Made by a program: the position numbers and the translations under genes. Below, piece by piece: positions 30,087-36,988 of a stretch of DNA of 64,000 nt. The DNA is from Flavimarina sp. Hel_I_48 (GTDB lineage: Bacteria > Bacteroidota > Bacteroidia > Flavobacteriales > Flavobacteriaceae): the NCBI RefSeq assembly GCF_000733945.1, contig NZ_JPOL01000002.1, positions 1,179,001-1,243,000 on the forward strand. Direction: 5' to 3'. Below the pieces are notes generated by a model. The model made no database searches and was not told the origin of the DNA. It saw only the letters and a program-made list of their open reading frames with translations. Position 1 is the first letter of the stretch; the number at the start of each line of letters is the position of its first letter.

Positions 30087-31373
30087 TTACCTCTCCTTGA
30101 TTTCTTTAAATTCACGATGTGTCTCCCCTATATATACCTGACGAGGTCTGCCTATAGGCTCTTTGCGCTGACGCATCTCGCGCCATTGTGCGATCCAACC
30201 AGGCACACGGCCCATTGCAAACATTACGGTAAACATTTCAACGGGTATACCTAATGCACGATAAATTATACCTGAGTAGAAATCAACGTTAGGATATAAC
30301 TTCCGGTCAACGAAATAACTATCTTCCAGAGCTTCTTTCTCTAAGCCTTTTGCAATATCCAGCACCTCATCCTCAACACCCATCAATTCAAGCACATCAT
30401 CTGCTGCTTTCTTGATAATCTTAGCGCGAGGGTCAAAATTCTTATAAACACGGTGACCAAAGCCCATTAAACGGAAAGGATCTTCTTTATCCTTCGCTTT
30501 GGCCATATATTTTTTAGTATCACCACCATCAGTCTTGATAGCCTCAAGCATGTCAATTACGGCTTGATTGGCACCACCATGCAAAGGCCCCCAAAGTGCA
30601 GAGATACCTGCGGAAATGGAAGCAAAAAGTCCGGCTTGTGAAGAACCCACCATTCGTACGGTAGATGTTGAACAGTTTTGCTCGTGGTCTGCATGTAAAA
30701 TAAGCAATTTATCAAGTGCTTCTATTACCTGTGGATCTACATTGTAATCTTTATTGGGACGGGAGAACATCATTTTATGAAGATTTTCCACATATCCCAG
30801 ATTGTTACTTCCATAGTCCAATGGTTGACTCATCTTGGTACGCATAGTCCATGCTACCAGAACTGGGAATTTACCCAGAAGCTTAATTATAGCATTATAC
30901 ATATCTTCTTCAGAATCCACATTTACAGCAGTAGGATTAAATGCGGTCAATGCCGAAGTGAGTGAAGAAAGAACGCCCATGGGATGTGCCGATTTTGGAA
31001 AACCTCCAAGAATCTTTTTTACGTCTTCATCTACATGGCTCTCATCTTTAATATCACTGTGGAACTTATCCAACTCATCTACTGTAGGTAGTTCTCCAAA
31101 GATTAGCAAATAAACAACTTCCAGAAAACTTGCTTTATCCGCTAAATCTTCAATAGCATAACCACGGTATCTTAAAATACCTTCTTCCCCATCCAGAAAT
31201 GTTATAGCACTTTCACAGCTCGCTGTGTTTTTAAATCCAGGATCTAAAGTCGTGACCCCTTTGGTAACACCACGCAAAGAGCCTATATCGATTGCAATTT
31301 CTTTTTCAGTTCCAGTTATTAATGGAAACTCATAATCAGCTCCATCTATCTTAAGTTTAGCATCCTCTGCCAT
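30087..31373 (-). CDS. gltA: citrate synthase
   Basis: GltA condenses acetyl-CoA and oxaloacetate to citrate, the entry to the TCA cycle. The 428-residue protein is a type II (hexameric, Gram-negative-type) citrate synthase. Catalytic regions are visible: HADHEQNCSTSTVR (first His), GPLHGGANQAV (second His) and GFGHRVYKNFDPRA, with the aspartate in the ED-containing stretch further on. N-terminal LKIDGADYEFPLITGTE is typical of the type II extension. It may be preceded by the structured RNA 31480-31668 as a leader. It is transcribed away from it and ends at the terminator 30030-30066. Confidence 0.97.
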   Translation of the reverse strand: MAEDAKLKIDGADYEFPLITGTEKEIAIDIGSLRGVTKGVTTLDPGFKNTASCESAITFLDGEEGILRYRGYAIEDLADKASFLEVVYLLIFGELPTVDELDKFHSDIKDESHVDEDVKKILGGFPKSAHPMGVLSSLTSALTAFNPTAVNVDSEEDMYNAIIKLLGKFPVLVAWTMRTKMSQPLDYGSNNLGYVENLHKMMFSRPNKDYNVDPQVIEALDKLLILHADHEQNCSTSTVRMVGSSQAGLFASISAGISALWGPLHGGANQAVIDMLEAIKTDGGDTKKYMAKAKDKEDPFRLMGFGHRVYKNFDPRAKIIKKAADDVLELMGVEDEVLDIAKGLEKEALEDSYFVDRKLYPNVDFYSGIIYRALGIPVEMFTVMFAMGRVPGWIAQWREMRQRKEPIGRPRQVYIGETHREFKEIKER

Positions 31374-31479
31374 CAGTTATTGTTTTATACTGTTTAAAAT
31401 CGTTATTGTTAAAAATACAAAAAAGCCTGCAATTTATTGACCTGACTAGGTAAAGCACAGGTTAAATAAACCTTAAAAG

Positions 31480-31668
31480 AAAAAAAGGGGCAGCGACTTA
31501 AAGTCACATGCCCCTTACCCAACTTCAAACCTAGTCTTGAATATCTTGGGGATTTTAAGAAGAACGGATTTTACTCTCTTTCGATTTCAAATCCATTCTT
31601 TCACCCAACTTAAAATTTTCAAAATTTTCGATAAAGCTGGGTGCTTTAATATCCTTGACTAGATTACA
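31480..31668 (-). ncRNA. candidate structured RNA of about 190 nt with its own terminator
   Basis: This lies in the 574-bp eno-gltA spacer. Minus strand, 5' to 3': P1 left arm (31665-31648), P2 hairpin (31643-31634 with 31611-31602, 10 bp), P3 hairpin (31600-31589 with 31571-31560, 12 bp), P1 right arm (31545-31528), then a terminator. P1 is 9 bp, an AA/AA internal loop, then 7 bp. The terminator stem (31516-31485) has 14 bp with one bulge, followed by at least six T. A promoter-like TAGTTTAG (31680-31673) fits a start near 31668. The P2 3' strand AAGUUGGGU is repeated next to the terminator (31525-31517), so two folds are possible. It is either a free small RNA or a gltA leader/attenuator. 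I cannot assign it to a known family. Confidence 0.6.
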
Positions 31669-31672
31669 GATG

Positions 31673-31700
31673 CTAAACTAAAAAAAATCTTACAAAACAA
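31673..31700 (-). promoter_or_regulatory. predicted promoter of the structured RNA
   Basis: The -7-like TAGTTTAG (31680-31673) matches TAnnTTTG at five of six fixed positions, with a TTG about 17 nt upstream, slightly short of the usual 19. An 11-bp inverted repeat (AATCTTACAAA, 31686-31696 with 31721-31731) overlaps the upstream box and may be a regulator site. Confidence 0.4.
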
Positions 31701-31905: not shown

Positions 31906-31930
31906 AAAAACACCCGTACAGGGTGTTTTT
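31906..31930 (-). terminator. terminator after eno, bidirectional form
   Basis: AAAAACACCC and GGGTGTTTTT form a 10-bp stem with a 5-nt loop. The T-run is present on both strands. It lies 18 nt past the eno stop on the minus strand. Confidence 0.8.
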
Positions 31931-31947: not shown

Positions 31948-33249
<1,302 letters not shown>

Positions 33250-36932: not shown

Positions 36933-36988
36933 TCTTAGTTGTTATTAGTGGGGTGGTTAAGGAATTAAGGTCTAGTCCTTCGCAAAAC

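Follow-up and report, generated by a model that had tools for sequence, protein, structure and literature searches.

The spacer between the eno and gltA genes of Flavimarina sp. Hel_I_48 carries an RNA that is real as a conserved sequence and whose constant element is a seed-hairpin module, rather than the long helix P1. Its genomic place, its seeds, and its hairpins are conserved, and a candidate target carries a complementary sequence. We regard it as probable that this spacer encodes a stand-alone sRNA of ~190-210 nt that pairs with mRNAs from other loci and so controls them in trans. We read it as a two-seed antisense sRNA because a near-invariant sequence lies beside covarying hairpins, because the locus is an apparently independent unit, and because a near-perfect complement of the seed occurs in the hairpin loop of another mRNA.

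The window, that is, the whole stretch of 64,000 nucleotides that was analyzed, holds the candidate sRNA gene (~190 nt) at 31478..31671 on the minus strand, with the 5' end placed by a promoter-like box and the 3' end by the terminator U-run. The upstream gene, which we take to be eno (enolase; 31948..33237, minus strand), and the downstream gene, presumably gltA (citrate synthase; 30087..31373, minus strand), were delimited by their ORFs and synteny, and their names follow an earlier note on this DNA. That note gave the intervening spacer as 574 bp, which we confirm. A terminator scan places a terminator of eno at 31906..31930 (minus strand), upstream of the sRNA, and the window's ORF list holds no ORF of at least 60 aa across the RNA. 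The earlier note had further proposed that the minus strand of this spacer encodes a structured RNA, and the folding statistics bear it out: the minimum free energy is -76.4 kcal/mol against -51.0 +/- 4.4 in 200 dinucleotide shuffles (z -5.81), none of which is as good (0/200). Across three genera, 28 genomes have the RNA between eno and gltA, with fold z-scores of -2.4 to -8.6. Weaker z-scores (+0.1 to -5.1) are obtained across the 28 RNAs when only the 5' domain with module 1 is folded. Our model R1 matches the window at 31473-31669 with 144 bits, a match that is not independent because the window's sequence is one of the 11 from which R1 was built.

The distribution of the RNA follows a single gene neighborhood. 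In the window's genus, 12 of the 13 genomes have a gltA match, and in 10 of these 12 the RNA lies between eno and gltA; the remaining two (G149 and G156) have gltA without the RNA, in spacers of 249 and 283 bp. A second genus, g206, which is probably Dokdonia, has matches in 17 of its 18 genomes, all 17 beside eno and gltA, and the one genome of the third genus (g190) also carries the RNA. When 397 genomes of the family were searched with R1 under stricter filters, 16 matched at E <= 0.1. The convincing matches are those in the window's own genome (G000), G144, G150, G217 of g206 (1.4e-8), and G201 of g190 (9.6e-6), and the weak ones are in 11 genomes (E 0.011-0.098), together with a second match in G150. 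None of the weak matches has gltA beside it, and at one (L199) the start of eno is ~1.3 kb away. The weak loci L189-L192 were examined by eye; at L190 (G267:C1:2217556-2217717; R1 E 0.0185), from another genus, UUUUGAAGUUGG stands before a terminator-type hairpin. The phage collection returned no match to the RNA.

The main feature of the RNA, which the earlier note overlooked, is a duplicated motif (31611-31601 and 31526-31515). The sequence AAGUUGGGU(G/A)A is present twice, in copies 74-100 nt apart, each immediately 5' of a hairpin that usually has a terminal U-run; a module is, accordingly, a U-rich stretch, then (G/U)AAGUUGGGU(G/A)A, then the hairpin, usually then the U-run. In the window, seed 1 (AAGUUGGGUGA) occupies 31601..31611 and seed 2 (GAAGUUGGGUAA) 31515..31526, both on the minus strand. 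Two modules are found in 26 RNAs, while that of G407 has the first only and that of G201 the second only; there are therefore 54 modules, of which 52 have the exact AAGUUGGGU (27/27 copies of module 1 and 25/27 of module 2), with one change each in module 2 of G416 and G420. The purine following GU is identical in both seeds of 25/26 RNAs, the exception being the window's own RNA. The hairpins vary by compensatory pairs while the seeds stay fixed.

Several further elements were observed in and around these modules. Upstream of seed 1, GUUAGUGAAU(A/G)AA is present in 15/17 RNAs of g206 (e.g., L222) and in 0/11 others, and is a possible third conserved element in the 5' domain of that genus. Immediately before seed 2 stands TAnnTTTG (31533-31526, minus strand), presumably the -7 promoter consensus of Bacteroidetes, whose final G is the one preceding the seed. 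The same arrangement is seen in 10/27 module-2 copies, including that of the window, and is not conserved in the remaining ones; a start there, if used, would yield a very short RNA with the seed at its 5' end. Elsewhere in the window's own genome, at ~1500 of locus L138 (G000:C3:271873-271890, plus strand), UUUAAAGUUGGUUAAAAG immediately precedes a strong hairpin that has a U-run, and another AAAGUUGG lies shortly upstream; the site comes after an ORF that is presumably leucine-rich-repeat-like. This is a possible paralogous module.

As described in the earlier note, the window's RNA folds into a split P1 (9 + 7 bp), a 10-bp P2, and a 12-bp P3, then a terminator-type hairpin, and the positions of these helices are upheld. 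The outer part of P1 pairs AAUCUAGUC (31665-31657) with GACUAGGUU (31536-31528), and the inner part GGAUAUU (31654-31648) with GAUAUUC (31545-31539), across AA/AA. Here the 3' strand (31528..31536, minus strand; partner 31657-31665) pairs in such a way that 4/300 shuffles are as good. Among the own-genus RNAs, P1 beats shuffles (<=13/300 as good) in 6/10 and is weaker in 4, species-swapped pairings often equal the RNAs' own, and in the RNAs of g206 examined by eye a local hairpin replaces it. These observations rule out P1 as a universal core: the split helix is present as the note had it, but its conservation extends only to part of one genus. For P2, the 5' arm CACCCAGCUU (31634..31643, minus strand; p 0.002 here) is a putative target mimic pairing with seed 1. 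Such pairing is found at p <= 0.05 in 18/27 RNAs, with the arm varying both in its letters (CCCAAC, CCUAAC, CCUGGC, CCCAGC, and others) and in its distance upstream of seed 1 (~50 nt in g206, 29-38 nt in seven own-genus RNAs); in G144, G150, and G152, seed 1 pairs best with a different stretch ~60 nt upstream. Since no P2 pair changes on both sides in alignment A1, this helix is unproven by covariation.

The two hairpins that follow the seeds are the better conserved part of the fold. Folding hairpin by hairpin in each RNA, as distinct from an alignment-based test, P3 (31560..31600, minus strand; 12 bp, directly after seed 1) forms in 27/27 with varying pair types, and P4 (31480..31516, minus strand), of the intrinsic-terminator type with U7, in 26/27, being degenerate in G420. 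P3 is followed by a U-run in the relatives and by UUCUU in the window's RNA. The earlier note had argued that such long, well-matched arms point to selection and had suggested looking for covarying pairs in the eno-gltA spacers of relatives; compensatory changes are indeed found there, with two-sided changes in 9/14 pairs of P4 on alignment A1 and 9/11 on alignment A4, and with P3 and P4 pairing via different letters. On A1 (11 sequences), 93.9% of cells pair, versus 87.2 in shuffles and 38-60 in slid controls, and two-sided changes occur in 12 pairs, versus 6.1 in shuffles, both values being reached by 0/500 shuffles. Four of the five pairing measures are reached by 0/500 shuffles and the fifth by 2/500, and all are above the slid controls, although the aligned sequences behind these strongest statistics are related, and kinship can beat such shuffles without structure. 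RNAalifold found no pair on alignment A3, which we attribute to a misalignment of P3 by MAFFT, out of register between the two genera, and the module model R2, being sequence only, was left unused. A peptide gene was also considered and rejected, given the lack of an ORF of at least 60 aa, seed-to-seed distances falling in all three residues modulo 3, and the covarying stems.

The locus has both a terminator-type hairpin and a conserved short seed, as expected of an independent gene for a trans-acting antisense sRNA. The terminator that the earlier note had claimed is supported: P4 folds here, with its U7, and the hairpin also folds in nearly all relatives. This reading rests on the folds because a simple terminator scan reported the terminator of eno and missed P4. 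The promoter that the note considered plausible fared less well. TTG-N17-TAGTTTAG (31673..31700, minus strand) is suggestive, being matched or beaten by 16/100 shuffles; a sigma-70 scan gave 3 sites versus 4.2 in shuffles; and in most of the 28 genomes the sRNA promoter consensus does not clearly exceed shuffles.

That the RNA is instead a cis-acting leader or attenuator of gltA, as the note had entertained, would fit its place before gltA in every one of the 28 carriers and hairpins that mostly end in U-runs. However, a gltA promoter-like region (TTTATTTAACC ... TATTTTTAAC; 31408..31470, minus strand; aligned by eye) lies beyond the sRNA terminator on the 3' side. In 11/12 own-genus loci, including the two species that have gltA without the RNA, and in 13/18 further carrier loci, gltA is preceded by the box TA-N0-3-TTTAGC, the window's own box being a variant off this pattern. 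Moreover, the last seed pairs with 0/28 gltA leaders better than shuffles (p <= 0.05; last seed only, mononucleotide shuffles), and the upstream unit has its own terminator. Because of the position of the box, the gltA loci without the RNA, and the failure of the last seed to pair, we consider an attenuator very unlikely. Even less credible is that the sequence lacks any function as an RNA and serves as tandem terminators or 3' insulation between the two genes: both hairpins are terminator-shaped, but terminators do not need a near-invariant 9-nt sequence upstream, and eno already has a terminator. Further, a genome contig scan gave 80 gltA loci, 50 with eno directly upstream (spacer <300 bp in 36/50), and among the spacers of these 50 the sense strand shows AAGTTGGGT in only one, that of L032, a carrier of the RNA. 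The 6S-like role raised in the note has the slightest chance of all. A long closed fold in one lineage would be in keeping with it, and 6S-Flavo (RF01685) is likewise a flavobacterial structured RNA, but 6S-Flavo is a separate gene elsewhere in the same genome (G000:C2:151176-151284; 91 bits versus a cut-off of 85), and it is on this account that we reject the role. The Rfam covariance models, including that of the flavobacterial 6S, which the note had proposed to run, place no family over the cut-off in the spacer: at the Rfam 15 gathering score none is found there, in 17 further loci of the RNA, or in the candidate target locus L018, and below the cut-off there are five weak matches (E 0.42-3.7). 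Of the note's interpretation, an unassigned, selected structured RNA with its own terminator-type hairpin survives, while the 6S-like role is not supported and the gltA attenuator is unlikely. The sole over-cut-off Rfam match in the window is an S4-Flavobacteria ribosomal protein leader at 36956-36988 (minus strand; 35.3 versus a gathering score of 35.2).

The preferred reading, a trans-acting antisense sRNA, draws on a candidate target. The RNA of G144 is exactly complementary over 17 nt (~0.0007 such matches expected by chance per genome) to a stretch of the spacer between two genes of 212 and 104 aa that, from their sequences, we take to be peroxiredoxin-like (prx) and thioredoxin-like (trx). 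In the trx leaders of G144, G150, G151, G152, and G154, CACCCAACUUCA lies unpaired in the loop of a predicted AAUUUCUU/AAGAAAUU hairpin, ~50-35 nt before the AUG, and the leader-seed duplex has 13-18 contiguous pairs at -29 to -35 kcal/mol, with 0/300 shuffles as good in each of the five. The site is thus present in 5/13 own-genus genomes and absent in the other 8, including the window's own (96/300 shuffles as good); seven of these eight leaders do not stand out (equalled by 36 to 290 of 300 shuffles), and in G155 the match is a different one and weaker (-20.8, likewise 0/300). The five carriers are 97-98% identical to G144 over trx, and, as they are close relatives, their sites may represent one evolutionary event. 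The surrounding locus (L018 190-2168; G144:C20) has on one strand the peroxiredoxin-like and thioredoxin-like genes, an 82-aa ORF, and a presumably thiol-peroxidase-like gene, and from its sequence looks like a peroxide-defence cluster.

An 11-mer search of the window's own genome brought up no clear target: it gave 17 sites including the two seeds, and the 15 non-self sites barely exceed the 10 of a reversed-pattern control. The best duplex there (-30.1 kcal/mol; L214) is antisense ~40 nt into an ORF that is presumably glycosyltransferase-like. A 12-mer search of the 13 genomes gave 37 matches, 18 of them within the RNA, 4 in trx leaders, and 15 elsewhere. The 11 of these 15 that were examined are mostly in coding sequence; one match (L164, in G158) lies just upstream of an ATG (-22 kcal/mol), and another of the 15 (L215; G000:C2:3580599) offers no clear target. 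No Hfq was found in the 13 genomes of the window's genus with a model that detected it in 5/14 controls.

In other phyla, CsrB/RsmZ-type RNAs titrate or guide proteins, and the eno-gltA RNA could conceivably do the same, with the repeated AAGUUGGGURA as the site of an RNA-binding protein. We hold this for an outside possibility, though it is the main rival of the antisense reading. A short near-invariant motif in two copies beside hairpins has the look of such a site, and no clear antisense target was found in the own genome. Hfq was not found, yet RbpB binds sRNAs in Bacteroides (PMC11697453). Against this reading, a 17-nt complement in the trx leader that 0/300 shuffles equal is not expected of a protein site, and the single-module versions in G407 and G201 would make for a sponge of low valency.

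Under the antisense reading, the RNA would act as two tandem modules, each with a U-rich stretch, the near-invariant seed UURAAGUUGGGURA, and a hairpin usually with a U-tail. Seed 1 would be partly hidden by the variable 5' arm of P2, which mimics the target, and seed 2 would lie between P1 (or the local hairpin) and the terminator. Targets are expected to carry UYACCCAACUU(C/U)A, the best candidate being the leader hairpin loop between the peroxiredoxin-like and thioredoxin-like genes of the five related species, where pairing would probably lower thioredoxin output or uncouple thioredoxin from the upstream gene. The transcription of the RNA, its pairing in the cell, the sign of its effect, and its independence of Hfq are inferred. 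More tentatively, and in our estimation rather doubtfully, the RNA may be a dual-length regulator, whose short one-seed form would arise where transcription stops at P3 and whose long two-seed form would arise by read-through. As each seed has its own terminator-type hairpin, termination efficiency would set the valency, and the eno-gltA neighborhood would be linked to thiol/peroxide defence (prx-trx) without Hfq.

Repetition of the same short seed within one RNA is known from the LhrC, csRNA, and RsaE-type sRNAs of Firmicutes, in which the seeds are C-rich. The eno-gltA RNA shares the repeated seed but has G/U-rich seeds, and we claim no homology. Closer in phylogeny are the sRNAs of Bacteroides, from the same phylum. 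According to PMC11697453, which also names LhrC and the Cia-dependent sRNAs, FopS has a single-stranded seed stretch and then a terminator hairpin, and GibS has two distinct seeds, R1 and R2; FopS comprises 14 paralogous genes with R1 and without R2 and is deposited in Rfam. The seed-plus-terminator plan is similar, and GibS is two-seeded, but the eno-gltA RNA is one gene with two near-identical seeds and no Rfam family at the cut-off. In Flavobacterium, Rfp18 is described as a stand-alone structured sRNA, widely conserved in that genus, with a predicted site in the intergenic region of two co-transcribed genes, fpp2-fpp1; its deletion lowered one mRNA of this pair and not the other (PMC9723704). 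Compared by description, both would be stand-alone flavobacterial structured sRNAs with a predicted site between two genes. None of the 9 gltA loci with Flavobacterium in their titles has AGTTGGGT on the sense strand.

We rate the eno-gltA RNA as a new sRNA family, of an antisense kind that is already known and with an unusual tandem design; the open-access literature searched yielded no description of it. To our knowledge, few flavobacterial sRNAs have a candidate target. For this RNA, the genomic location is fixed, the seed is defined, and a candidate target leader can be given with its coordinates; it is therefore a direct test case for antisense target finding where no Hfq was found, with the natural single-module variants of G407 and G201 providing a ready-made comparison of one seed with two.
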